DNA from: Chloracidobacterium thermophilum B
GTDB lineage: Bacteria > Acidobacteriota > Blastocatellia > Chloracidobacteriales > Chloracidobacteriaceae
Reading direction: 5' to 3'
Assembly (NCBI RefSeq): GCF_000226295.1
Contig: NC_016025.1
Coordinates: 930,001 to 994,000 of the forward strand
Length of the DNA: 64,000 nucleotides
The position numbers and the translations under genes were made by a program. A model generated the notes under the pieces. The model was not told where the DNA came from. It saw nothing but the letters and a program-made list of their open reading frames with translations, and ran no database searches. This document shows positions 2,356 through 62,728 of this stretch, one piece after another. How positions within the stretch are numbered: the first letter of the stretch is position 1; each line of letters begins with the position of its first letter.

Positions 2356-2435
2356 AGGGGCATCCTACCGGCACACAGGAATCAGTAAATAGGAATAATC
2401 TGAATACCAGAGAGCCGCCCCCGATGCAAGAACCG

Positions 2436-2490
2436 GGCGCGCGGGCGTCTCGCCCGCACGAGCTTGGGAGCGCGGGCATCCTGCCCGCAT
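2436..2490. repeat. Dispersed palindromic GC-rich repeat, two units
   Basis: Two adjacent imperfect units share the core GCGGGC-(N4-5)-GCCCGC: GCGGGCGTCTCGCCCGC, then GCGGGCATCCTGCCCGC. Each forms a short hairpin. The same unit recurs at 51141-51260 inside cas3 and at 52527-52579 between cas genes, so it is a dispersed family. Here it lies between the ATPase gene and the secreted protein at 2527. Confidence 0.8.
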
Positions 2491-41660: not shown

Positions 41661-41777
41661 TCGCCACTCGCCACTCACCACTCGCCACTCGCTATTCGCT
41701 ATTCGCTATTCGCTATTCACTACTCACCACTCGCTACTCACCACTCGCTACTCACTACCCGCCACTCGCTACTCGCC
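41661..41777 (+). repeat. Heptanucleotide tandem repeat array, about 16.7 units
   Basis: Sixteen consecutive 7-base units plus a final TCGCC match the consensus TC(G/A)C(C/T)A(C/T). Main variants are TCGCCAC, TCGCTAT, TCACCAC and TCGCTAC. The period is unbroken, and the array ends exactly at the ATG (41778) of the mog gene. Confidence 0.95.
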
Positions 41778-45327: not shown

Positions 45328-45546
45328 GAACGGATTTCTTCACTCCTCGCATCAGGCTGGAAGTTTTTGTCACACAGCGCCACACCTGACGGGCGTGGCC
45401 CTTGCGTACGCCCAACCGTTGCGGCTGATGCTTTGAACCTGTGGCGGACAGCTTAGGACGTTGCCCCGTTCTTGTCCACTGTCGTCCCTACCATATCGGA
45501 CTGGCTGCTGTCGGCAGCCGAATCCAAACCCAGCGAGGTCAACGCT

Positions 45547-46920
45547 ATGTCACTTTCACTTCAGCAACTCCAGCAGGCCGTCCGCACGGCGACGGCCCTG
45601 CGCTGCCGTCTTCGTCTCCAACCGGCTGGCGGCCCTGGCACCAAGGTCTTTCCCCCAACCTACGAAGGCGGACGCTACGCCCTCGAAGAACGCCGGATGC
45701 CGGGTTACGACCATCCGGTACGCTGCGTCCTGATGGATTCCGTGCAATCCCAGGCCAACCGCATGGAAGAGGCACTCCAGCAGGCCGTGGATGACGGCCG
45801 CCTTGCCCTTCCCCTGGTCGAAGTGGATTTCACGCCCTACTTCCCCGGCAATGGCCAGCCGGAAGACATGCGGCTTCTGGAACCCATCGGCAGGGTGTCG
45901 TCCCTGCAGGCCCCACACCGCATCGTGGATGCCATCCTGCGCGACAGCGTCGTGATTCAAGAACAGCGGAAACCGTTTCGTTCGTCCAACGTCAAGCAGG
46001 AATCCTCCTATGGACGCCAGCTTCGTGAAGCGGCAGCCCACCATGCCACGCCTTTGTTCGAGCTGTGCCCGACAGCGCTTCTGTTTGGCATGTGGGATTC
46101 CACCGGCCCCAAAGGTGGTCTCGGCGCCAAGTTTGAACGCGCCATGGTGAGCGAGATTGTGGGCATCAACGCCGTTCTGGGCGCGAAAACCAGCAGCCGG
46201 ATTGACCCGCTGGGCATCCAGCTCAAGGCCGGGCCGCTGTACCGGACGCCGCCCACCGAACCGCTCGGATGGACGCTTGACCCTGGGAAAGCCGTCAAGG
46301 ACAACAAGGGCAAGCCTGTCCTGCTCGGCGATACCGGACGCCCTTCAGAAGCCAATCACGGCAATGTCACGCGCCCGTCAACCTCAGGCAGCAGCCGCGC
46401 CGGAACCGGACGCCCTTCAGAAGCCAATCACGGCAATGTCACCCCAACCATCTCCGAACGTGACCGGCAGGGTGAATTCCTGGGCGGCGGCGTCACCATT
46501 GACTACGCCGAACAGAGCATCGTCCTGTCGCTGCCGGCCCTGCGCCGGCTCCGCTTCCCCATCAATGGCCGGAACAACCGCGCGGCCGATGAAGCGGCGT
46601 GGACCGTACTGGCGGCGCTGGGCCTCTGTGCGGCCATTCTGGCCGACGACGCCGGGCTGGATTTGCGTTCCCGCTGCCTGCTCTGGCCGCAGGAGCCGTT
46701 GAAGTGGGAACTGCTGGGCCGCCCCGGTGAAATTCAGTCAGACATCGTTCTCGATGCGGAAGCCGCGCTCCGGCTGTTCATGGAAGCCGTTGACGAAGCC
46801 CGGAAGTGTGGCCTTCCGTGGCGCACCACCCCGCTCCAGCTTCAGCCGGCACCGGAACTCGTCAAGCTCGTCGTCAAAAGCCAACAACTGGCGCAGAGCC
46901 AGGGAACCCAGGAGGAGTAA
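45547..46920 (+). CDS. csb1: Type I-G CRISPR-associated Csb1 (Cas7g) (457 aa)
   Basis: Backbone RAMP subunit of the Cascade complex, expected to polymerise along the crRNA. Family blocks are VLMDSVQSQANRMEEAL, LFGMWDSTGPKGGLGAKFER, SEIVGINAVLGAKTSSRIDP and the SEANHGNV motif. The last is duplicated by a 72-bp in-frame repeat (residues about 263-299). Start at ATG 45547 with GAGG nine bases upstream. The next gene starts five bases after its stop. Somewhat longer than typical Csb1. Confidence 0.93.
   Translation: MSLSLQQLQQAVRTATALRCRLRLQPAGGPGTKVFPPTYEGGRYALEERRMPGYDHPVRCVLMDSVQSQANRMEEALQQAVDDGRLALPLVEVDFTPYFPGNGQPEDMRLLEPIGRVSSLQAPHRIVDAILRDSVVIQEQRKPFRSSNVKQESSYGRQLREAAAHHATPLFELCPTALLFGMWDSTGPKGGLGAKFERAMVSEIVGINAVLGAKTSSRIDPLGIQLKAGPLYRTPPTEPLGWTLDPGKAVKDNKGKPVLLGDTGRPSEANHGNVTRPSTSGSSRAGTGRPSEANHGNVTPTISERDRQGEFLGGGVTIDYAEQSIVLSLPALRRLRFPINGRNNRAADEAAWTVLAALGLCAAILADDAGLDLRSRCLLWPQEPLKWELLGRPGEIQSDIVLDAEAALRLFMEAVDEARKCGLPWRTTPLQLQPAPELVKLVVKSQQLAQSQGTQEE
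46333..46442 (+). repeat. Perfect 38-bp direct repeat inside csb1
   Basis: Two identical 38-base copies (46333-46370 and 46405-46442), separated by 34 bases, encode TGRPSEANHGNVT twice. The 72-bp offset keeps the frame and adds 24 residues. Confidence 0.9.
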
Positions 46921-46925
46921 CCGCC

Positions 46926-48476
46926 ATGCTGACGTTGGCTTGGACCTACCTGACGGGCTACGCCCGCGCCACCGACCCGGCGCGGCGCGACGCCCCGGAG
47001 TGGCCGCCACATCCGGCGCGGGTGTGGCTGGCGCTGGCGGCCGCCTTTTTCGAGACCGGCGAGGACCCCGCCGAAGGTCATGCGCTGGAGTGGCTGCGCA
47101 CGCTGCCTGACCCGCAGGTGTGGCTTCCTCTCCAGGCTGGCGGCCGCCGGCACGTTGTCACCGCCTACGTGCCGGTCAACGACAAGGCCGAAGGCACGGC
47201 CCTGCTGCAATCCGCCCCGCTGGCACGCAGCAAGCAGCCGCGCACATTTCCGGCGGTCTGGGTTGGCGACCGGCCATGCTTCCTGCACTGGCCGGAAGCC
47301 CCGGACAGCGACCGCTACCGACCGGCGCTGACGCAGCTCTGCGCCAGGGTGACGCGCCTCGGACACTCGGCTTCACTGGTGCAGATGTGGGTCGCCGAAA
47401 GACTGCCCACACCGGAGGACAGCTTTGCTGGCTGGCTGCCGACGGAAGAGGCGGACAGCGGGTTGGCTGACCTGCACCTCCGCCGTATCTTCCAGGGACC
47501 TTCACTCGAACGCCTGCGGGAAACGTTTCAGGCTGGCCGGCGTCCGCTGGTCGGTCTGGCCGCCGGGTATCGTGCCGCCACCTTCACACCGCCGCCTATG
47601 ACCAACACAACGGCTTTCGACCGCGACCTTCTGGTGTTGACACAAGTTGACGGCCCGGCACTGCCGGTCACCGCCAGCCTTCAGGTGATGCAGGCGCTCC
47701 GGGACACCCTGATGGCCCACTGCCCGCAGCCGCCGCCGGCATGGGTGAGCGGCCATGACGCCCAGGGCCAACCGCTGGCCGACAGGCGCGGACATCTGGC
47801 GCTGCTCCCTCTGCCTTTCGTGGGCTACGAATATGCTGATGGGCGGTTGCTCGGCGTGGCGCTGGCGTTCCCCACGGAGATTGACCGCCGCGAGCGCGGC
47901 CGCGTCATCAGGCCGCTCTTTGTCAACCAGCAGGGCAAGCCGGCGGATGTCAGTCTCCGGCTCGGCCGGCTGGGCGTCTGGGTGCTGCGCAAGCGTGCCT
48001 GGGACGACACCCGCCTCACGCTCCAGCCTGAAACCTGGACGGCCTTTCCCCGTGGAGCCAAACGCTGGGCCAGCGTGACGCCGGTCGTGCTCGACCGCTT
48101 CCCCAAAGCCAACCGCCTGACCGAGCGCGCCAACTGGGAATACGAAGTCGGCTCCATTCTCTTTGAGGCCTGCCAGTACGCCGGGCTGCCGGAGCCGGTT
48201 GAAATTGACTTCGGCACAACGGCCTGGACTCCGGGTGCTCCCCGCGCCATTGCCAAAGAGCGTCCCGTGCGCGGCGCTTCCCCGCCGGCGCAGGCCAGGC
48301 TGGGCGACGGATTTCCCCCCTACCTGCTCAAAGGCGCACGCGCTGCAAAGCCACAGGTTCATGTCTTCTTGCGTTTTGCCGAGCCGGTCGTTGGCCCGGT
48401 TCTGCTCGGCGCTGGCCGCTTTCTCGGCTACGGCCTGTTCAAACCCCTCGATTTTTTTGTTCCCAAACGGAGCTAG
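46926..48476 (+). CDS. csb2: Type I-G Csb2 (Cas5g-Cas6g fusion) (516 aa)
   Basis: RAMP protein that in type I-G combines the Cas5 role (crRNA 5' end, complex tail) with Cas6 pre-crRNA processing. The N-terminus (MLTLAWTYLTGYARATDP, PPHPARVWLALAAAFFET) is typical of Csb2. The C-terminus ends in a Gly-rich loop (GPVLLGAGRFLGYGLFKPL), the RAMP signature. A catalytic His for Cas6 activity cannot be assigned by eye. Tightly spaced between csb1 and cas3. Confidence 0.9.
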   Translation: MLTLAWTYLTGYARATDPARRDAPEWPPHPARVWLALAAAFFETGEDPAEGHALEWLRTLPDPQVWLPLQAGGRRHVVTAYVPVNDKAEGTALLQSAPLARSKQPRTFPAVWVGDRPCFLHWPEAPDSDRYRPALTQLCARVTRLGHSASLVQMWVAERLPTPEDSFAGWLPTEEADSGLADLHLRRIFQGPSLERLRETFQAGRRPLVGLAAGYRAATFTPPPMTNTTAFDRDLLVLTQVDGPALPVTASLQVMQALRDTLMAHCPQPPPAWVSGHDAQGQPLADRRGHLALLPLPFVGYEYADGRLLGVALAFPTEIDRRERGRVIRPLFVNQQGKPADVSLRLGRLGVWVLRKRAWDDTRLTLQPETWTAFPRGAKRWASVTPVVLDRFPKANRLTERANWEYEVGSILFEACQYAGLPEPVEIDFGTTAWTPGAPRAIAKERPVRGASPPAQARLGDGFPPYLLKGARAAKPQVHVFLRFAEPVVGPVLLGAGRFLGYGLFKPLDFFVPKRS

Positions 48477-48479
48477 CCC

Positions 48480-51400
48480 ATGACGCAGGTTGGTATTGGC
48501 GACTTTGACGCTTTTTTCCGCGAAGCTCACGACTGTGATCCCTACCCGTGGCAGCGGCGACTGGCGGCCGCAGCCGTGGCTGGAGACTGGCCGCCAGTGC
48601 TCGATCTGCCCACCGGCAGCGGCAAAACGGCCGTCATTGACATTGCCGTGTTCGCTCTCGCCTGTCAGGCGGCGCTGGAACCGCCGGCGCGCACGGCCGC
48701 GCGCCGGGTGTTTTTTTGCGTCAACCGGCGCGTCATTGTGGATGCCACTTACGAGCGGGCCCTGCGCCTGGCCGGGAGACTGCTGGAAGCGGAAGCTTCC
48801 CCGACCCGGTGGCCGACGCTGCACAAGGTTGCGGCGGCTTTGCGGCAGCTTTCAACCCTCCGCCCGGAAAGCGCGCCACCGCTCGATGTGCTGGAACTGC
48901 GCGGCGGTCTGTACCGCGACAATCGCTGGGCCCGGTCGGTGACGCAGCCAATGGTGGTCTGCACAACCATTGACCAGTTTGGCTCGCGGCTGCTCTTTCG
49001 CGGCTACGGTGTTTCGGCCCACGCGGCTCCGATTCACGCCAGTCTGGCCGCCTACGACAGCCTGGTGTTTCTCGATGAAGCCCACATCAGCGAACCTTTC
49101 CGGCAAACCCTGTGTGCCGTCCAGGACTACCTTGACCCGCAGCGGTGGGCAGAAGAAGCCATCGGTGTGTCCCCTTTTCGGCCCGTGGCCATGACGGCGA
49201 CGCCGCCCAAAGCCGCCGGCCAGGCGGCCTTCCGGCTGGACCATACCGACCGGCGCACGCCACGCCTGGCTGCCGTTCTGGGTGCTGACAAACTGGTGCA
49301 GCTCAGGGTTGTCTCCGATCTTCCGAAAGACCTTGTTTTTGAAGCCAAGGCGATGGCGGAAACCGGTCAGTTGGCGGTTGGTATCATCGTCAACCGGGTG
49401 GCGACAGCCCGCGCCGTCCACCGGCTGCTCTGCGAAGCCTTTCCCGATGCCCCGGTGGAACTCGTCATCGGCCCGATGCGTCCGGTTGACCGCGATGCCC
49501 AGCAGCGGCGCTTGATGCCACGCATCGGCCCTGACCGGCCTGACCGGAGCGCGCAGCTCAGCTTTGTGGTGGCGACCCAGTGCCTTGAAGTCGGCGCCGA
49601 CTATGACTTTGACGTGCTGCTGACGGAATGCGCCTCACTGGACGCGCTGCGGCAGCGGTTCGGACGGCTCAACCGCCGCGGCCGGCCCATTGCCGCCTCA
49701 GCCGTGGTGTTCATTGAAGTAAAGGCGCTCAATCCCAAAAAGCCCGATCCTGTCTATGGCGACGCCCTGCCCAAAACCTGGGAATGGCTTACCGAGTGGG
49801 GGCAATCCGACGACGTGAATTTTGGCATTGACGCTTTTGACGCTTACCTGAACGGCCAGGGGCTGCCCGTGGAATGTCTGGCGCCTGCCGCCCGGCGCGA
49901 ACCTGCGGTGCTGCTGCCGGCGCATCTGGACTTGCTCTGCCAGACGAGTCCCCGGCCGGCGCTGGAACCCAACGTGGGACAGTTGCTGCACGGCCCGCAG
50001 CCCGGCGAACCGGACGTGCAGGTGTGCTGGCGGGCTGACCTCGATGCTTTTCCGCCGGATGACTGGAGTGAAGTCGTCAGCCTGCTGCCGCCGACGGCAA
50101 CCGAGTGCATGACCGTACCGATGTCGGTAGTGCGCCGGTGGCTGACCGGTGCGGAGGAGACTGGCAAAGACGATGCGGCTGACCTTTTGGAGCTTGGCGG
50201 CGAAACAGCCGGGACGGATGCCAAACCGGAAGCTCCAGATGGAAGCGCCGTCAAGCCTGAGCGCCGTGGCCTGCTGTGGCGCGGTCTGGCGGACAACCGG
50301 CTTTTGACGGCAGTGAGTGACCTGCGTCCGGGCGATACCCTGGTCTTTCCGGTGGCAGCCGGTGGCTGGGAGGTGGTGGGGCATCTGCCGGTGGACGCCT
50401 CGCCAGATGCCGCCGAGGCTGCTTCTGTGACGGCCCGCAACCGCCCTGTCGTACGGCTGCACCCACATCTTTTTGACCGCGAGTGGCCGGCTCTGCAGGA
50501 ACTCTTCGCCCGCCTCGCCGAGCCGGAAACCGTGTTCGGGGTGGAGGACTGGCGCGAAGCGTTGCGCGCTCTGGCGGACGACCTGCAAACCGGAGCGGAA
50601 GACAAGTTGCCTCAGCACTGGCCGGCTGACGCCCTGCGCACGGCGCTGCACCAGTTGGCTGACCCAAAGCTGGGCCTGCTTCGTACGCCTTACCCGGACG
50701 GCCGGGGCTACGTGCTGACCACCCGGAAGCGACTGGCCGGGAGGGCGGACTGGTCGCTGCCGCTGATGGACGAAGGCGAAGATGAGCGTTCCTGGATTGC
50801 CAGCGCCGAGCCGGTGACGCTGGCGGCGCACAGCCGGCATGTCCGGGATGAAATCCAGCGTACGGTACGGGCGCTGCCGCTGAACATTCGGGAGGAAGTG
50901 TTTCTGGCGGCGGCCGAGGCCCACGACTGGGGCAAGGCGGATGAACGCTTCCAGGCGCTTTTGCAGCGTGCTGACCGGACGGAAACCTGGCTGCTGGGGG
51001 CTTCCCCGCTGGGTTTGCTGGCCAAGTCGGACGGCTTGCCATTGACGCCGCTCGAACGGCGGCAGGCGCACGAGCGGGCCGGGCTGCCGGCCGGTTTCCG
51101 GCATGAGATGCTTTCAGTGCAGATGATGGAAACCCTCCTTGGGAGTGTGGGCGTCCCGCCCGCAAAGCCTGGGAACGCGGGCATCCTGCCCGCAGAGCCT
51201 GGGAATGTGGGCGTCCCGCCCGCAGAACGTGAGAGCACAGGACTCCTGCCCGCCGAACTCGATCTCATCCTTTACCTCATTGGCACACACCACGGACGGG
51301 GCCGCCCGCTGGCCCCGGTCGTGGTGGACCTCGAAGCGCCTGACGTTGCCCTCACGGCCGAGCTTTTGGGCCAGTCGTACACCGTGGCGGTATCGCATGC

Positions 51401-51566
51401 CTGGCGTGAAAAAGCGCCGCCGCACCGGCTCGATTCGGGCATTGGCGCGCGTTTCTGGCGGATGCAGCGCCGTTTCGGTTGGTGGGGCGCGGCGTATCTG
51501 GAGACGATTCTGCGTCTGGCCGACCACCAGGCCAGCGCCGATGAAGAAGCCGGTCTTGTGTCCTGA
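48480..51566 (+). CDS. cas3: Type I-G Cas3 helicase-nuclease, helicase-HD order (1028 aa)
   Basis: Degrades target DNA after Cascade recruitment. SF2 helicase motifs come first: LDLPTGSGKTAVIDIAVFA (about 40), LVFLDEAHISEPF (about 196), AMTATPPKA, and QRFGRLNRRGRP (about 390). The HD nuclease is C-terminal, as in I-G: LAAHSRHVRDEIQ (about 781), AEAHDWGKADERFQALL (about 813) and IGTHHGRGRP (about 934). Four 10-residue repeats from a dispersed DNA element interrupt the HD domain at about 888-927. All key motifs remain. Confidence 0.94.
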   Translation: MTQVGIGDFDAFFREAHDCDPYPWQRRLAAAAVAGDWPPVLDLPTGSGKTAVIDIAVFALACQAALEPPARTAARRVFFCVNRRVIVDATYERALRLAGRLLEAEASPTRWPTLHKVAAALRQLSTLRPESAPPLDVLELRGGLYRDNRWARSVTQPMVVCTTIDQFGSRLLFRGYGVSAHAAPIHASLAAYDSLVFLDEAHISEPFRQTLCAVQDYLDPQRWAEEAIGVSPFRPVAMTATPPKAAGQAAFRLDHTDRRTPRLAAVLGADKLVQLRVVSDLPKDLVFEAKAMAETGQLAVGIIVNRVATARAVHRLLCEAFPDAPVELVIGPMRPVDRDAQQRRLMPRIGPDRPDRSAQLSFVVATQCLEVGADYDFDVLLTECASLDALRQRFGRLNRRGRPIAASAVVFIEVKALNPKKPDPVYGDALPKTWEWLTEWGQSDDVNFGIDAFDAYLNGQGLPVECLAPAARREPAVLLPAHLDLLCQTSPRPALEPNVGQLLHGPQPGEPDVQVCWRADLDAFPPDDWSEVVSLLPPTATECMTVPMSVVRRWLTGAEETGKDDAADLLELGGETAGTDAKPEAPDGSAVKPERRGLLWRGLADNRLLTAVSDLRPGDTLVFPVAAGGWEVVGHLPVDASPDAAEAASVTARNRPVVRLHPHLFDREWPALQELFARLAEPETVFGVEDWREALRALADDLQTGAEDKLPQHWPADALRTALHQLADPKLGLLRTPYPDGRGYVLTTRKRLAGRADWSLPLMDEGEDERSWIASAEPVTLAAHSRHVRDEIQRTVRALPLNIREEVFLAAAEAHDWGKADERFQALLQRADRTETWLLGASPLGLLAKSDGLPLTPLERRQAHERAGLPAGFRHEMLSVQMMETLLGSVGVPPAKPGNAGILPAEPGNVGVPPAERESTGLLPAELDLILYLIGTHHGRGRPLAPVVVDLEAPDVALTAELLGQSYTVAVSHAWREKAPPHRLDSGIGARFWRMQRRFGWWGAAYLETILRLADHQASADEEAGLVS
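51141..51260 (+). repeat. Four tandem 30-bp units of the dispersed repeat, in frame in cas3
   Basis: Units at 51141, 51171, 51201 and 51231 are 30 bases each. Unit 2 contains GCGGGCATCCTGCCCGC exactly, as in the noncoding copies at 2466-2490 and 52527-52550. They encode SVGVPPAKP, NAGILPAEP, NVGVPPAER and STGLLPAEL. Confidence 0.93.
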
Positions 51567-51607: not shown

Positions 51608-52519
51608 ATGACACCGAATCACCACATTGTGTTGCGCGGATTGGATGGCACAACGCCGCTGGGTTTTCTGGCGGCGCTGGGGCTGGTGAATGCTTTGCGG
51701 GAATGCCTGCCCGACCTGTGTCTGGCGTGGACGACTGACGAGGGCGGGTGGGTAGCCCAACTGGGCAGCTCAGCGCCAATCCGTCAGGCCGACCTGCTGA
51801 ACTGGCTGGATAAAATGCTGGTCAGGTCGCTGGACCAGCATCCGGCGCGGCTTTACGAAGAAGTCAAACAACAGCCGGGGAATGTGTTTTTGCAGGTACG
51901 TCAGGCAGCGGCTGTTGGTCATCGTCGGGAGGCTGATTTTCTGGCCGCGATCGCCAGCAATCTGGCGCCGGCAGAGGCGACGAGCCAGCTTCAGACAACG
52001 CGCCGGGATTATCACGTAGGCAATATCAAGTCCATTTTGGGAAGAACCACGCGCAGTCATCTGGACCGGACGCTGTTCAAGCCGTGGGATTATGCCGACC
52101 CGATGGACAATCAATCCCTACATCTCGACCCTTCGGAGGACCGGCGGCATGCCTATCAGTGGCATAAGCCCTCTGGCGACCCGACCCGCAGGCAGCGGGG
52201 CACGATGTTGGGTGCCAACCGGTTGGCCATTGAGGCGTTTGCGTGGTTCACCGTCTGGCCTGTGGGTGGCGCGCTCAAAACGCTTGGATTCAGCGGGTTT
52301 GGCAGCGGGGAGACGCGGTGGACGTGGCCCATCTGGACGCCCTTTGTTCCCCCTGATCTCATCCCTTCCCTGTTAGCGTTGGCGCCGCTTCAGGACGATC
52401 CCATTGGGGAGAGCGACCGGCGGCGATTGCGTCACATGGGGATTGCGGCGGTGTATCGCGTACGGCGGATTTTAGTAGGCAAGACACCGAACTTCACGCC
52501 GGCGCGCAACATCGCCTGA
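51608..52519 (+). CDS. Small type I-G Cas protein in the Cas8 position (303 aa)
   Basis: The N-terminus VLRGLDGTTPLGFLAALGLV resembles the opening of Csx17/Cas8-type subunits, and a WTTDEGGWVAQLGSS segment follows. The middle has YHVGNIKSILGRTTRSHLDR and the C-terminal part LKTLGFSGFGSGETRWTWPI. At 303 aa it is less than half a normal Csx17. Candidates are Csb3/Cas8u1 or the Cas3-extension family of type I-G loci; I cannot decide. By position it is probably the Cascade subunit for PAM reading or Cas3 recruitment. Confidence 0.72.
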   Translation: MTPNHHIVLRGLDGTTPLGFLAALGLVNALRECLPDLCLAWTTDEGGWVAQLGSSAPIRQADLLNWLDKMLVRSLDQHPARLYEEVKQQPGNVFLQVRQAAAVGHRREADFLAAIASNLAPAEATSQLQTTRRDYHVGNIKSILGRTTRSHLDRTLFKPWDYADPMDNQSLHLDPSEDRRHAYQWHKPSGDPTRRQRGTMLGANRLAIEAFAWFTVWPVGGALKTLGFSGFGSGETRWTWPIWTPFVPPDLIPSLLALAPLQDDPIGESDRRRLRHMGIAAVYRVRRILVGKTPNFTPARNIA

Positions 52520-52526
52520 CCACCCT

Positions 52527-52579
52527 GGGAGCGCGGGCATCCTGCCCGCATATCTCGAAGCCTGGGCGTTTTGCCCGCA
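52527..52579. repeat. Dispersed palindromic repeat between cas genes
   Basis: A unit with GCGGGCATCCTGCCCGC (in 52527-52550) is followed by a degenerate GGGCGTTTTGCCCGCA (52564-52579). It occupies most of the 81-base gap before cas4-cas1. Confidence 0.88.
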
Positions 52580-52600: not shown

Positions 52601-54346
52601 ATGAAAGACAATCTCCTTGCTACGCCGGACCTCATCCCGGCCAGGATGCTCAATGAGTATGTGTACTGCCCACGTCTGTTTTACCTTGAGTACGTCCAAC
52701 GTGAGTGGGCAGAAAATGTTGATGTTCTGGAAGGACGTTTCGTTCATCGGCGCGTTGATCGGCCGGGCGGGCCGGCGCCGGTGCCGGCCGAAATCACGGC
52801 GGAGAGCAAAATCCATGCGCGTTCGGTGGAGGTTGGCTGCCCGGAGCTTGGCGCTGTGGCGGTGATTGACCTGCTTGAAAGTGACGACGGGCAGGTGGTG
52901 CCGGTGGATTACAAACGGGGTGCCGCGCCGGACCTGCCGGAAGGCGCCTGGGAACCGGAGCGCATTCAGGTTTGTTTGCAGGGGCTTTTGCTGCGCGCCA
53001 ATGGCTACCGCTCTGGTTATGGGATCATCTACTACGCAGCCGATAAAACCCGCGTCCAGGTGGATTTTACACCGGCTCTCGTTGCACGGACAAAGCAGCT
53101 TTTGGCAGCAGCGCGGGCTTTGGCTGTTTCAGGCGCGATACCTCCGCCACTGGTCAACTCTAACAAGTGTCCGCGTTGCTCTTTGGTTGGCATTTGCCTG
53201 CCAGATGAAATCAATTTCCTGCGCGGCGACGACAAGGCCTCGGAAGCCACAGTAGCGACAACGCTACCGTCTGCAACCGAAGCGCCTGGAGGCGTGTTGC
53301 CAGCTCCAACCGGTAGGGAAGTACGGCGTTTGGTACCGGCGCGTGACGACAACAAGGCCGTCTATGTTCAGGGCCAAGGTTATGCGCTGGGCCTCAATGG
53401 CACCGTACTTGAAATCCGCGACAAAGGACAGGCCGTAGACGCGGTGCGGTTGGTTGAAATCAGCCAGGTTAATCTGTTTGGCAATGTACAGATTTCGGCA
53501 CAGGCGCTCCGGGCTTTGGTGAACCGGGAGGTTCCTGTTTTGCACTTGAGCTACGGTGGCTGGTTACAGGCCGTTACAACAGCTCCGCCGCACAAAAACA
53601 TTGAATTACGTCGGCAGCAGTTTCAGGCAGCCGGCGATCCGGATTTTTGTCTTAGGCTGGCAAAGGCTTTCGTGAGTGGAAAAATCCGTAACAGCCGTCT
53701 TCTTTTGCGGCGAAATGGACGTCGACTTGATCCGGAAGTGTTATCCCAGTTGGCAGCATTACGTAATGCTGTTGAGAGGTGCGAAGAACTATCTTCGCTT
53801 TTGGGAATTGAAGGCAACGCAGCACGTGAGTATTTCCGTCATTTCTCGGCAATGTTTAAGCCAGAGAACGAGCCGCCATTTGATTTTACCGGGCGCAACC
53901 GGCGTCCGCCCAAGGACCCGGTCAATGCCTTGCTTTCCTTTGCGTACAGCCTTTTGGTCAAGGAAATGATGGTGGCGGTCATTGGCGTTGGCTTTGACCC
54001 TCACCTTGGTTTTTACCACCAGCCGCGCTATGGAAGACCGGCTTTGGCTCTTGACCTGATGGAGGAGTTTCGCCCTTTGGTAGCGGATTCGGTAGTCATC
54101 ACGGTTATCAACAATGGTGAAATCGGGCCTTCGGATTTCATCCAGCGGGGCGAAGCAGTGGCATTGACACCGCGTGGTAGAAAGACCTTCATCGAGGCTT
54201 TTGAGCGTCGGCTTGATCAGTTGGTCATGCATCCGGTTTTCAATTATCAGGTCAGCTATCGCCGGATTTTTGAAATTCAGGCGCGACTTCTGGCGCGTAC
54301 GCTGATGGGTGAAATCCCACGCTACATTCCCTTTGTCACTCGCTGA
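52601..54346 (+). CDS. cas4-cas1: Cas4-Cas1 fusion, spacer acquisition (581 aa)
   Basis: Residues 1 to about 205 are Cas4: MLNEYVYCPRLFYLEYVQ with the first cluster Cys, a RecB-type active site (LLESDDGQVVPVDYKRG), and the C-terminal cluster NKCPRCSLVGICL (4Fe-4S). Residues about 245-581 are Cas1, with GIEGNAAREYFRHF (Glu), GVGFDPHLGFYHQ (His) and ALDLMEEFRPLVAD (Asp). The fusion is a hallmark of type I-G and couples PAM trimming to integration. The Cas1 half looks more A/T-rich than the genes upstream. Confidence 0.95.
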   Translation: MKDNLLATPDLIPARMLNEYVYCPRLFYLEYVQREWAENVDVLEGRFVHRRVDRPGGPAPVPAEITAESKIHARSVEVGCPELGAVAVIDLLESDDGQVVPVDYKRGAAPDLPEGAWEPERIQVCLQGLLLRANGYRSGYGIIYYAADKTRVQVDFTPALVARTKQLLAAARALAVSGAIPPPLVNSNKCPRCSLVGICLPDEINFLRGDDKASEATVATTLPSATEAPGGVLPAPTGREVRRLVPARDDNKAVYVQGQGYALGLNGTVLEIRDKGQAVDAVRLVEISQVNLFGNVQISAQALRALVNREVPVLHLSYGGWLQAVTTAPPHKNIELRRQQFQAAGDPDFCLRLAKAFVSGKIRNSRLLLRRNGRRLDPEVLSQLAALRNAVERCEELSSLLGIEGNAAREYFRHFSAMFKPENEPPFDFTGRNRRPPKDPVNALLSFAYSLLVKEMMVAVIGVGFDPHLGFYHQPRYGRPALALDLMEEFRPLVADSVVITVINNGEIGPSDFIQRGEAVALTPRGRKTFIEAFERRLDQLVMHPVFNYQVSYRRIFEIQARLLARTLMGEIPRYIPFVTR

Positions 54347-54882: not shown

Positions 54883-57800
54883 GTTTTCCGCTTTGAAAAA
54901 AAGCGGCTCCATTGAAGCATCGCTGCCACAGCCCTGCTCCATCTGGCGGAAGCCGTTTTCCGCTTTGAAAAAAAGCGGCTCCATTGAAGCTTTCCCATGA
55001 GGCGGTGCGCTGGGTGCTCTGCTTCGTTTTCCGCTTTGAAAAAAAGCGGCTCCATTGAAGCACGGAGCGGTTTGCCGCTTTGTTGCCGCCCGAGGTGCCG
55101 TTTTCCGCTTTGAAAAAAAGCGGCTCCATTGAAGCCTCCGGGTCGCCGGACCACGTCCACGCATACAGCAGGGTTTTCCGCTTTGAAAAAAAGCGGCTCC
55201 ATTGAAGCCCAGGCGGCGGAGTAGGCGCTCCAGCGCCGCCCAAAGGTTTTCCGCTTTGAAAAAAAGCGGCTCCATTGAAGCTCAACGATACTGAAGCGGT
55301 CGTCCAGCACGAAAAGGGTTTTCCGCTTTGAAAAAAAGCGGCTCCATTGAAGCGGCAAACGGGTGAACAGGCTGCTTGAAGTGATGCCGCGTTTTCCGCT
55401 TTGAAAAAAAGCGGCTCCATTGAAGCTCAGTCGTTGGCGCGCCGTCAAGAGCTTCCAGTACGCGTTTTCCGCTTTGAAAAAAAGCGGCTCCATTGAAGCT
55501 GGCGCGTAGTTTCCCACCTAGCGTCCATCAGCGCCTGTTTTCCGCTTTGAAAAAAAGCGGCTCCATTGAAGCCTTGACGCGAACGTTTTGCTCGGGCGGC
55601 TGATTGGCCAGTTTTCCGCTTTGAAAAAAAGCGGCTCCATTGAAGCATTCTTACCGGCTGGCCTTCTTGGTCTACCCATACCGTTTTCCGCTTTGAAAAA
55701 AAGCGGCTCCATTGAAGCCCCTTGACGGTGGAGGCTACGGGCGGGCTGCTCGCACGTTTTCCGCTTTGAAAAAAAGCGGCTCCATTGAAGCGCAACCGCG
55801 TGACGGGACGCTGCGTAGCGATCACCGTGTTTTCCGCTTTGAAAAAAAGCGGCTCCATTGAAGCACTGCACAACCGACATCGCGAACTGCTTGAACGCTT
55901 GTTTTCCGCTTTGAAAAAAAGCGGCTCCATTGAAGCATTGACTGGAACAGCGACGAAAACGCCTTCTTTGACGGTTTTCCGCTTTGAAAAAAAGCGGCTC
56001 CATTGAAGCGCGCCTGCGCGCCTATCTGTGCCCGGCGGGTGTCTGTTTTCCGCTTTGAAAAAAAGCGGCTCCATTGAAGCATTGACTGGAACAGCGACGA
56101 AAACGCCTTCTTTGACGCGTTTTCCGCTTTGAAAAAAAGCGGCTCCATTGAAGCGCCCGGTTGCGGCAAATGCGCCGTATATCGTTGGCGGTTTTCCGCT
56201 TTGAAAAAAAGCGGCTCCATTGAAGCATCCCGACGTTGCCCGCGCCGATTGTTTTGTCAGCGGGTTTTCCGCTTTGAAAAAAAGCGGCTCCATTGAAGCG
56301 GGACTTCTGGTTTCACAGGTGGGTTCTTGCTGATCAGTTTTCCGCTTTGAAAAAAAGCGGCTCCATTGAAGCTCCCAGCGCCAGTCTCTGGCGCGAACCA
56401 GCGCCAGGTTTTCCGCTTTGAAAAAAAGCGGCTCCATTGAAGCTGCAAGGACGCTTTGACGCAATGGCCGGAGACAAGAATGTTTTCCGCTTTGAAAAAA
56501 AGCGGCTCCATTGAAGCGCTAGCGAACTGGCGGGGTAGCCCCTACGGGGCTATAGTTTTCCGCTTTGAAAAAAAGCGGCTCCATTGAAGCAACAGCGGGA
56601 GCATCTTTTCAGACGCTGGCAATCCGTTTTCCGCTTTGAAAAAAGGCGGCTCCATTGAAGCAGACAGTCTCCGCTGGTGGCTGAAATGTCCTGGGAGTAG
56701 TTTTCCGCTTTGAAAAAAAGCGGCTCCATTGAAGCCCGGCTCCGGGACGCCACAGGGTTCTCCGGCAACCGGCGTTTTCCGCTTTGAAAAAAAGCGGCTC
56801 CATTGAAGCTACGAAGAGCGTGACGGCAAGTTTGTCCTGCCGGTGGTTTTCCGCTTTGAAAAAAAGCGGCTCCATTGAAGCGTGACCGGCGGCGCGCCGG
56901 ACGGCTGGATGGTGATGGGTTTTCCGCTTTGAAAAAAAGCGGCTCCATTGAAGCATCCGCAAGGTGGCAGAAGAAGTTGGCGTCTAACCGTTTTCCGCTT
57001 TGAAAAAAAGCGGCTCCATTGAAGCCGCAAGCCGACACGACAAGTGCCGGGCTGCTGATTCCGTTTTCCGCTTTGAAAAAAAGCGGCTCCATTGAAGCGG
57101 TTACGTCCCCGCTCCTACCAGCGGTCAGGTTACGTTTTCCGCTTTGAAAAAAAGCGGCTCCATTGAAGCGGGATTTCGGCGAGGGAAAGATTGACAGTAC
57201 GCACGGGTTTTCCGCTTTGAAAAAAAGCGGCTCCATTGAAGCCAGATGGTGCTCCGCGGCAAGCTGACGCGCCAGTTGCGGTTTTCCGCTTTGAAAAAAA
57301 GCGGCTCCATTGAAGCTGTGACACGAGGTGTGCCTCGTCAATAACGACGAGATGTTTTCCGCTTTGAAAAAAAGCGGCTCCATTGAAGCGGTGCATAACT
57401 TATTGATCTGACTGGGCTTAGCTGGTTTTCCGCTTTGAAAAAAAGCGGCTCCATTGAAGCTTGACACTGTAGTGCGGCGTCCAGTGCCAGCGCGTGTTTT
57501 CCGCTTTGAAAAAAAGCGGCTCCATTGAAGCCGGCTTGGTCACGGGCTGATTACCGATCCGCCAGCGTTTTCCGCTTTGAAAAAAAGCGGCTCCATTGAA
57601 GCACCTGCGTTTATGGCCCGCCGGCCACTGTTTGATTCGTTTTCCGCTTTGAAAAAAAGCGGCTCCATTGAAGCTAAATCCGGTCGTCGTCCTTGCACAC
57701 GGCGTAGTAGTTTTCCGCTTTGAAAAAAAGCGGCTCCATTGAAGCTCAAGGCGCCACGCGACCTCTTCGTTGTCGTGCTCCTGTTTTCCGCTTTGAAAAA

Positions 57801-58557
57801 AAGCGGCTCCATTGAAGCCCGGCGCCGGTCGGGATCGCGTGCAAGGGGTGCCGACATGTTTTCCGCTTTGAAAAAAAGCGGCTCCATTGAAGCCGCGTCG
57901 GACAAGTGTGACAGGCGGACACACGGGACGGTAGTTTTCCGCTTTGAAAAAAAGCGGCTCCATTGAAGCTAGACCTTGCCCGGCTCCGGCTCAGGCAGGC
58001 CAATGACCGTTTTCCGCTTTGAAAAAAAGCGGCTCCATTGAAGCGCGCGAACAAGGGCGAGCTTAGACTGGGGGAGCGGGGAGTTTTCCGCTTTGAAAAA
58101 AAGCGGCTCCATTGAAGCCGGCGTGACGCCCGCCAGAGATCGAGTAACTCGATGGCGTTTTCCGCTTTGAAAAAAAGCGGCTCCATTGAAGCAGTTCACA
58201 ATCTCCATTTCGTTCTCCTTTCTTTTTCGGTTTTCCGCTTTGAAAAAAAGCGGCTCCATTGAAGCGCTGCGGTGAGTTCGGCAATCAGTTTGCCCCGGCA
58301 GGGTTTTCCGCTTTGAAAAAAAGCGGCTCCATTGAAGCGCGGTCAGCGTTAGCCTGTGTCAGTTCGCTTCTGACGTTTTCCGCTTTGAAAAAAAGCGGCT
58401 CCATTGAAGCGCAAGCCTATCTCGACGCCATCGCCCGTCGGGCTGAAGGTTTTCCGCTTTGAAAAAAAGCGGCTCCATTGAAGCTGCTATGCTGCCCTGC
58501 TTGAGGAAAGTGCCCGTCTTGAGTTTTCCGCTTTGAAAAAAGTTGCTTCATTGAAGC
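54883..58557 (+). CRISPR. Type I-G CRISPR array, about 50 repeats plus a degenerate last repeat
   Basis: The 36-base repeat begins GTTTTCCGCTTTG, has a seven-A run, and ends AGCGGCTCCATTGAAGC. I count 50 repeats (54883 to 58484). All are identical except one A-to-G variant at 56626-56661. A degenerate copy follows at 58523-58557. Spacers are about 36-38 bases. The repeat can form a short stem (CCGCTTT/AAAGCGG). One spacer occurs twice (55937-55973 and 56081-56118). Cas genes lie directly upstream, so the array is expected to be transcribed on the plus strand. Confidence 0.99.
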
Positions 58558-62182: not shown

Positions 62183-62728
62183 CTATTGACCCTTGACATA
62201 AAAAATCCGGCCCTCCCAGCCCTGGCTCACCCAACATACCACTTGAAGCCGCCCTCGGTAAGGTACTGCCCAGTCCTGCCTTGTACCGCCCCTGAACCGC
62301 GTCTGACCCATATCTTGTGGCTATTGACCTTTGACATAAAGACTATTGACCTTTGACATAAAAACTATTGACCCTTGACATAAAACTATTGACCCTTGAC
62401 GTAAAACTATTGACCTTTGACGTAAGGCTATTGACCTTTGACGTAAGAAAACACCCGCGGATGACCACTATCTGCCCCCTTGCAGACCACAATATCTTGT
62501 GGTTGGCATAATTTCCGCGTTTTTTGCGTCGGTTTGACTCGAACGTTGGGCGGCACTATTGACCTTTGACGTAAAACTATTGACCTTTGACATAAAAACC
62601 ATTGACCTTTGACGTAAACGCTATTGACCTTTGACATAAAACTATTGACCTTTGACGTAAAAAACAGCCTTTTTTGGCTCTTATGTCAAAGGTCAAGGTC
62701 AAGGTGCTATTGACCCTTGACATAAAAA
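62183..62728 (+). repeat. Replication-origin iterons (13 direct, 1 inverted)
   Basis: The consensus CTATTGACC(T/C)TTGAC(A/G)TAA recurs at 62183; at 62321, 62343, 62365, 62386, 62407 and 62428; at 62556, 62577, 62599, 62621 and 62642; and at 62707. An inverted copy lies at 62681-62698. Spacing within clusters is 21-22 bases, i.e. two helical turns. Each iteron contains TTGAC twice. ATATCTTGTGG appears next to both main clusters (near 62310 and 62492). The second copy lies in the inverted repeat ACCACAA-TATC-TTGTGGT. Confidence 0.93.

Follow-up and report, generated by a model that had tools for sequence, protein, structure and literature searches.

An in-frame tandem array of a REP-type palindrome in the HD domain of a type I-G Cas3, with a RAYT embedded in HmaB as its likely mover

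The cas3g gene of Chloracidobacterium thermophilum B, which encodes the helicase/nuclease of a type I-G CRISPR system, carries four tandem 30-bp units in frame within its HD domain. The gene lies in a stretch of 64,000 nucleotides (contig NC_016025.1, positions 930,001 to 994,000), here called the window, whose numbering is used unless a contig is named. The units belong to a family of repetitive extragenic palindromes (REPs) of the type CCTGGGAGCGCGGGCRTCYYGCCCGC, with approximately 90–100 copies dispersed in the genome. We consider it probable that the insert is a short REP array, moved by a REP-associated tyrosine transposase (RAYT) and then enlarged by tandem duplication, and that the likely mover is a RAYT encoded in frame inside the gene hmaB. 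The genome studied (G000) has 3,695,372 bases in two contigs, C1 (2,683,362) and C2 (1,012,010), which are the two chromosomes of this member of the Acidobacteriota.

Architecture of the array in Cas3g

The gene and its repeat units are located as follows.

48480–51566, + strand: cas3g, type I-G CRISPR helicase/nuclease of 1028 residues, helicase followed by HD domain (TIGR02621, PADLOC Cas3g)
51140–51259, + strand: in-frame tandem array of four head-to-tail 30-bp REP units, codons 888–927 (51141–51260)
51140–51169, + strand: unit 1 (A), core GTGGGCGTCCCGCCCGC
51170–51199, + strand: unit 2 (B), core GCGGGCATCCTGCCCGC
51200–51229, + strand: unit 3 (A'), core as in unit 1, 26/30 bases identical to unit 1
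51230–51259, + strand: unit 4 (B'), a degenerate copy, with 24 bp fewer in the sister species (G149)

Cas3g matches TIGR02621 over residues 8–1020 with 704 bits (cut-off 400) and the PADLOC Cas3g model with 767.5 bits. This full-length match, together with the HD motifs, identifies the protein as a type I-G Cas3g. H784, H815-D816, R874-H875-E876, and H937-H938-G939 are among the invariant columns in an alignment of seven Cas3 sequences. The array is placed between the helices that bear RHE and HHG, and is translated within the 1028-residue frame as GSVGVPPAKP/GNAGILPAEP/GNVGVPPAER/ESTGLLPAEL. A sequence-only reading of the window had described four tandem units between the HD motifs at 51141–51260; the units are present at 51140–51259, and the range it gave corresponds exactly to codons 888–927.

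Units 1 and 3 are the most similar (26/30 identical bases), followed by units 1 and 2 and units 2 and 3 (24/30 each), units 2 and 4 (21/30), units 3 and 4 (19/30), and units 1 and 4 (18/30). These identities fit an A-B-A'-B' pattern, for the last unit only weakly. A tandem-repeat finder also reports a 60-bp period, which spans a longer stretch than the 30-bp period.

In an AlphaFold model of the full Cas3 (predicted local distance difference test, pLDDT, 53) the array forms coil over its whole length, flanked by the RHE and HHG helices, and in a model of the HD part (pLDDT 64, predicted template modelling score 0.68) it is coil except for a helix of four residues. Most of the array falls below pLDDT 50. 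Because both models are poor, we do not describe the array as a surface loop. In Foldseek searches with these models no hit reached E ≤ 0.001 and the 50 rows listed did not include a Cas3, and a search of the PDB by sequence gave two weak helicase matches. Since the models are weak and Foldseek found no match, no claim made here rests on the fold.

A dispersed REP family with a GGAG tag

The 17-mer core of the palindrome has 21 exact copies in the genome and 35 within one mismatch, and the looser core GYGGGCRTCYYGCCYGC has 93 copies within one mismatch on both strands; a reversed-pattern control gave 0 in each case, which confirms that the unit is a dispersed palindrome. At up to three mismatches, the 24-mer has 3 matches in the window, against 0 in 100 dinucleotide shuffles, and the 17-mer has 10, three of them the same sites read on the opposite strand, against a mean of 0.87 and a maximum of 3 in the shuffles. 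The consensus of 97 copies, collected from 20 genome stretches around matches, is CCTGGGAGCGCGGGCRTCYYGCCCGCAT, with C at −2 in 81 copies and T at −1 in 83. The element is made up of a 5' CT, a GGAG tag, and a GC-rich hairpin. Its 30-bp consensus is open in all six frames, in agreement with the earlier description of the units as stop-free. The following copies in the window are intergenic.

2435–2457, + strand: copy with GTCTC loop, first of a head-to-tail pair
2466–2488, + strand: exact copy with ATCCT loop, 31 bp after the copy at 2435
52526–52549, + strand: exact copy between the Cas3-extension gene and cas4-cas1
52556–52578, + strand: degenerate second copy, 29 bp downstream of the copy at 52526, same strand

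The 17-base core falls at 2472–2488 and 52533–52549, which substantiates the claim that it also occurs in noncoding DNA, and the cas operon does contain the element in two places, the cas3 array and the site at 52526.

Coding copies were identified by codon usage on either side of the copy, read in one shared frame, a test that needs 90 nt of frame on each side, so that copies near gene ends can escape it. It scored 16 of 98 copies in the fetched regions as coding. Two of these were dropped: C1:537471, which has four mismatches and is probably a chance match, and C2:867522, whose flank scores are near zero. The 14 clearly coding copies are in three genes, namely cas3g (three, as three of its four units pass the pattern), hmaB (seven, L040), and an hmaB paralogue (four, L046). 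PADLOC assigns both paralogues to HmaB, with 1471 and 1582 bits. Copies in coding sequence are thus rare.

We classify the repeat as a REP in the broad, RAYT-associated sense: it is a 5'-tagged palindrome of 20–40 bp in tens of copies, it is mostly extragenic, and copies flank a RAYT gene at the HmaB-embedded RAYT described below. The GTAG superfamily of Di Nocera 2013 (PMC3733652) accepts the tag variants GYAG, GYRG, GTRG, GTMG, and GTGG; because the consensus tag here is GGAG, the cas3 repeat is not placed in that superfamily.

The spacing of neighbours was recounted on 116 copies with up to five mismatches allowed. Where neighbours on opposite strands lie within 70 bp of each other, the tags are on the outer side in 8 pairs and on the inner side in 0. 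For same-strand neighbours 29–34 bp apart, a spacing of 30 is confined to cas3 (3/3). Elsewhere the spacings are 29 (5), 31 (2), 32 (1), 33 (6), and 34 (1), with multiples of three in 6 of 15, and five more neighbours are 22 apart. Since spacings outside cas3 vary, a spacing in multiples of three does not belong to the element as such and looks like a constraint of the cas3 gene. The proposal that the element can multiply in genes because 30 is divisible by three therefore stands as regards the absence of stops, whereas the 30-bp period is found only in cas3.

A second recurring sequence, GTCGCTACGCGACG / TCGCTGACGCGACGG, precedes many REP copies (C1 226–233k, 477–478k, and 2468–2489k) and complicates the anchoring of copies in the sister species.

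Comparison with the sister species and other homologues

Seven genomes of the genus were compared. Cas3 of the sister species G149 is 97% identical to that of C. thermophilum B by genome search (95.6% by blastp) and has three array units, with eight residues fewer. At the array site, Cas3 of G096, G151, and G152 has an ordinary loop. In G150 cas3 is in pieces, and matches to residues 797–886 and 922–1008 share one frame with only 12 bp between them, which shows that it lacks the array; G153 (85% complete) gave no Cas3 match. Family cut-offs are exceeded by three Cas3g genes in the genome studied (C2:978501, C2:175020, and C1:117843), of which C2:175020, and not the C1 gene, was taken into the comparison; it is without the array. 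None of the other readable Cas3 homologues aligned has it either (15 rows in one alignment and 9 besides G149 in another, partly overlapping), and on these alignments the cas3 array is lineage-specific. Residues 888–927 thus lack a counterpart in every readable homologue except G149, a point that the sequence-only reading had proposed to test; distant Cas3 proteins in the alignments show no array, and the genome holds many further copies of the unit.

The site at 52526 also differs between the two species: C. thermophilum B has one full and one degenerate copy, G149 four full units together with partial ones. Unit number therefore varies between the sisters at both sites. By the looser core, G149 has 86 REP copies against 93 in C. 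thermophilum B, and the five other species have 0–5; in two of these five the reversed control gave 1–2 matches as well.

The tandem arrangement in register and the difference in unit number would be expected of a plain minisatellite, in which 30 bp of cas3 were duplicated by replication slippage and no mobile element took part. Indeed, the last growth step was probably slippage-like. The same palindrome, however, is present about 93 times in the genome, on both strands and mostly outside genes, and the homologue loops read show no precursor. The dispersed copies largely refute slippage as the sole cause, and we regard this explanation as very improbable.

Alternatively, the array may have arisen by recombination or gene conversion between REP copies rather than by a RAYT, a possible donor being the intergenic copy about 1.3 kb downstream. 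Head-to-tail pairs occur in the same window (2435–2488 and 52526–52578), and copy number at the intergenic site differs strongly between the sister species. This route would leave the first copy, in a loop with no prior REP, unexplained, and we hold it to be rather unlikely.

Both array-bearing Cas3 frames are open throughout, which bears on whether cas3 is decaying and the insertion, which does lie within a catalytic domain, is a step toward lost function. The HD motif residues are conserved, and the two species differ by two synonymous and one non-synonymous changes in the 200 codons upstream of the array and by two and none in the 90 downstream. The locus also retains its other I-G genes and a long CRISPR array. 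Decay is on these grounds very unlikely.

The insert may instead have been selected, either because it alters Cas3 activity, for example in regulation of the HD nuclease, or because an mRNA hairpin regulates the operon. It is in frame in two species beside catalytic motifs, and PADLOC assigns each of the three genes in which copies are clearly coding to defence. Yet unit 4 is degenerate and absent from the sister, and the loop, which varies in length among homologues without repeats, is modelled as low-confidence coil. A functional insert is thus improbable in our view, and the array would be neutral, tolerated rather than useful.

A RAYT embedded in HmaB as candidate mover

REP-type palindromes are cut and joined as single strands by RAYTs, which are transposases of the HUH/Y1 class. 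The genome has three Y1_Tnp genes. One (C1:1423735–1423965) lies in frame within a 1203-residue HmaB, encoded at C1:1422070–1425681 (L040 2071–5682), which also contains further in-frame REP pairs. The embedded RAYT has about 187 residues and retains the HUH motif (PNHVH) and the tyrosine. It is flanked by REPs of the same family, one upstream in direct orientation and a pair downstream in opposite orientation. The same arrangement of hmaB, RAYT, and REP is found in G149 (L109), and in the paralogue L046 the flanks match and the RAYT is absent. Another Y1_Tnp gene, C1:2294845, was rejected as mover, as no looser-core REP copy is found within 80 kb of it.

Of 297 genomes of the phylum, 45 have a RAYT match at E ≤ 1e-30 and 252 have none; at least five copies of the GGAG-REP are found in 15 of the former and 5 of the latter (p = 5e-10, uncorrected for kinship; hand counts). 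In E. coli, TnpA-REP cuts at a CT beside the REP, and in the model of PMC8266576 the AG of the tag chooses the cutting site. By analogy, the CT-GGGAG element suits CT-cutting of this kind.

On these data we propose the following sequence of events. A single copy or a head-to-tail A-B pair would have entered the length-variable HD loop in the ancestor of both sisters, carried there by the RAYT that is encoded in hmaB and bounded by the same REP. Further duplication, by slippage or recombination, would then have given four units here, where the sister now has three. Only in-frame, stop-free outcomes would have been retained by the gene, in a loop already variable in length, and the embedded RAYT would itself persist in frame within REP arrays. 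We infer that the RAYT is active and that the HmaB copy, not a lost one, moved the cas3 repeat.

Several points weigh against this proposal. The link between RAYT and REP is predicted from sequence, and their association across genomes ignores kinship. Five of the 20 REP-rich genomes (G051, G075, G188, G255, and G290) have no RAYT match at E ≤ 1e-30, and G051 has 48 REP copies. The remaining Y1_Tnp gene, C1:2474065, has a REP directly downstream (2474522) and could be a rival mover, the next upstream REP being about 6 kb away. For the cas3 insert no target-site duplication was defined, nor an exact empty site, because loop length differs among repeat-free homologues too. Every anchorable REP site of C. 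thermophilum B (six regions and the window) has the repeat in G149, so no transposition event since the split of the two species was caught. This test is weak, as anchors within clusters are not unique: 4 of 10 window copies had no anchor, and 16 copies were anchored to two G149 regions. Of the active spread suggested earlier, the variation in tandem unit number between the sisters is thus borne out, and a dispersed site unique to one of them was not found by this weak test. Other RAYTs tolerate some tag changes. The tag here is GGAG rather than GTAG, whereas no change of the GTAG tag is tolerated in E. coli (PMC8266576).

The HmaB RAYTs of the two species differ by 0 synonymous and 2 non-synonymous changes, too few for dN/dS (the ratio of non-synonymous to synonymous rates). 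Between hmaB of C. thermophilum B (C1:1420000–1427000) and that of G149 (L109), dS is 0.03 in the N-terminal part, 0 in the RAYT insert, and 0.30–0.55 toward the C terminus. Because dS is low at the N-terminal end and high toward the C terminus, hmaB looks mosaic between the sister species, suggesting recombination.

Embedded RAYTs across the phylum

The RAYT search of the 297 genomes listed 67 matches at E ≤ 1e-30 (hand count). The embedded set was drawn from the open frames of at least 600 residues (15 RAYT matches), not from those of 400–600. In 14 of these 15 long frames the RAYT lies in frame within a host enzyme. The other one (G271, frame of 699 residues), in which the RAYT comes before an aminotransferase rather than within it, was left out.

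The hosts are HmaB in four cases (G000, G149, G074, and G021), type IIG/Eco57I restriction–modification (R-M) enzymes in four (G096, G074 twice, and G079), a type III-like methylase in one (G123), and acyl-CoA synthetases in five (G247, G114, G169, G105, and G279). The host is thus a defence methylase in 9 of 14 cases, and each of these nine has a match to a PADLOC defence model. Both termini of the host enzyme are visible in 12 of 14; the host gene is truncated by the end of the contig in L154 (G079) and L156 (G021). In every one of the 14, Pfam recognises domains of the host as well as Y1_Tnp, which scores above its cut-off in 13 (21.5 bits against 23 in G096), and all 14 RAYTs keep both HUH and tyrosine, as RAYTs do.

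Read from their positions, the insertions occupy about eight sites. At 13 loci (G149 was not repeated), a hairpin stem of at least 7 bp lies within 240 nt in 25 of 26 flanks, and a stem of 6 in the remaining one. Among 251 control windows from these genes, 55 reach 7 bp, and some of the 55 contain other REP arrays. The tags at embedded RAYTs are GGAG, GGAA, GGAC, GTGG, GTAA, and GTAG. In the acyl-CoA synthetase, the site that has the RAYT in four species is occupied in G247 by repeat peptides alone, the RAYT of G247 being at a different site. The five synthetase genes (L148–L152) thus show in-frame RAYTs at two sites, and repeat peptides are seen at further sites.

A tree of 48 RAYTs implies at least six changes between free and embedded states, three of them forced by well-supported branches. 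Embedded RAYTs cluster by host gene, with SH-aLRT support of 99 for all five synthetase RAYTs and 99 for three of the four type IIG RAYTs; the fourth groups weakly with free RAYTs. A single all-embedded R-M lineage of four was accordingly reduced to three once free RAYTs were added to the tree. With the G096 RAYT as query against the 297 genomes, the three closest matches (68, 60, and 45% identity) likewise have R-M enzymes as hosts, and the next relatives, at 37–45% identity, are free. In seven more distant embedded pairs, the proportion of synonymous differences (pS) is 0.71–0.91 and that of non-synonymous differences (pN) 0.17–0.33. This low pN relative to pS indicates constraint, part of which may predate embedding. 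The RAYT is more diverged than its host in all four pairs for which the host was compared.

The host in G096 (C2, L114 4060–9492), a type IIG/Eco57I-like R-M enzyme of 1811 residues with an in-frame RAYT, also contains a different repeat (VEQTFLSV.../VEQAFLPV...) in two long tandem arrays, both in frame. In plasmids, 25 records match the RAYT, all below 60% identity, and the matching stretch is annotated as transposase, as hypothetical protein, or not at all. Within the same genus, G152 has eleven Y1_Tnp matches (L095, L097, and L099–L107), mostly short or with internal stops, as if the family had decayed there; the genome has few GGAG-REP copies.

Relation to known systems

The GTAG-tagged REPs and REPtrons (PMC2817692, PMC3733652, and PMC8266576) are likewise short tagged palindromes in tens of copies, which occur singly, paired, or clustered, flank a RAYT, and in some cases lie inside genes. 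The family described here differs from these systems in one base of the tag, in the position of the RAYT, which is encoded in frame within an enzyme of the host, and in having an insert in a CRISPR nuclease. In PMC3733652, intragenic REP inserts mostly encode 20–30 residues and clusters 43–82, and many are in DNA repair genes; RPE-4 and RPE-6 are counted among them. Its main text does not contain Chloracidobacterium, and it mentions CRISPR five times, in the one instance considered as background. The text of PMC12306157 consulted counts 3,109 REPs in intergenic regions of C. thermophilum B and has no mention of the GGAG-REP family. Intragenic REPs, some of them in clusters that code for as many as 82 residues, are thus already known.

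In-frame palindromic elements in Rickettsia genes are already in print. As in these Rickettsia palindromic elements (RPEs), the palindrome here is found in frame in protein genes, namely cas3g and the two hmaB genes. The family differs from RPEs in that its copies are mostly intergenic, that those in cas3 stand in tandem, and that it has an associated RAYT. REPINs are REP pairs in opposite orientation, and such pairs are also found here; the cas3 array, unlike a REPIN, is composed of head-to-tail singlets and not of an inverted pair.

In the open-licence literature, taken without supplements, we found no published report of in-frame embedded RAYTs, nor of a Cas3 HD domain that carries a REP array; open-licence papers gave nothing relevant for the repeat core strings or AGILPA. 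PMC2817692 contains none of six terms for fusion or intragenic position. PMC6006769 notes a few unexpectedly long TnpA-Y1 members per subclass, ascribes them to fusions or annotation errors, and discards them, whereas we read 14 such proteins as in-frame insertions with hairpins on both sides. The 14 cases point to a way of life of bacterial transposases which was dismissed, in one survey at least, as fusions or errors.

It is possible, and we advance it only tentatively, that the RAYT–REP system lives in coding sequence: the transposase, which has neither a start nor a stop codon to itself, would be translated as one domain of the host enzyme and keep its catalytic residues, and with its stop-free REPs it would seed in-frame inserts such as that in cas3. 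If true, the system would resemble an intein with its homing enzyme, but would be resident in genes and would not splice. The entry of palindromes into reading frames, and their persistence there, becomes a testable question, because the repeat, a CRISPR nuclease that carries it, a difference in unit number between sisters, and a plausible mover inside a second defence gene meet in one genome.

Other features of the window

The genes and CRISPR array around cas3g are as follows, the extent of the array being taken from tandem-repeat rows.

45472–46920, + strand: csb1/cas7g (PF09617, 180 bits; TIGR02570)
46806–48476, + strand: csb2 (cas5/6-type), directly upstream of cas3g (TIGR02165, 256 bits)
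51608–52519, + strand: type I-G Cas3-extension family protein, directly downstream of cas3g (NF049934, 164 bits)
52601–54346, + strand: cas4g-cas1g fusion (NF049935, 788 bits)
54883–58557, no strand assigned: CRISPR array with repeat GTTTTCCGCTTTGAAAAAAAGCGGCTCCATTGAAGC (tandem-repeat rows with periods of about 71–74 and multiples)

Rfam at gathering thresholds gave no match anywhere in the window. A 21-bp unit of the type CTATTGACCTTTGACATAAAA forms two arrays, at 62321–62446 and 62555–62663, and an array based on the heptamer TCGCTAC, also with a period of 21, is found at 41661–41776.

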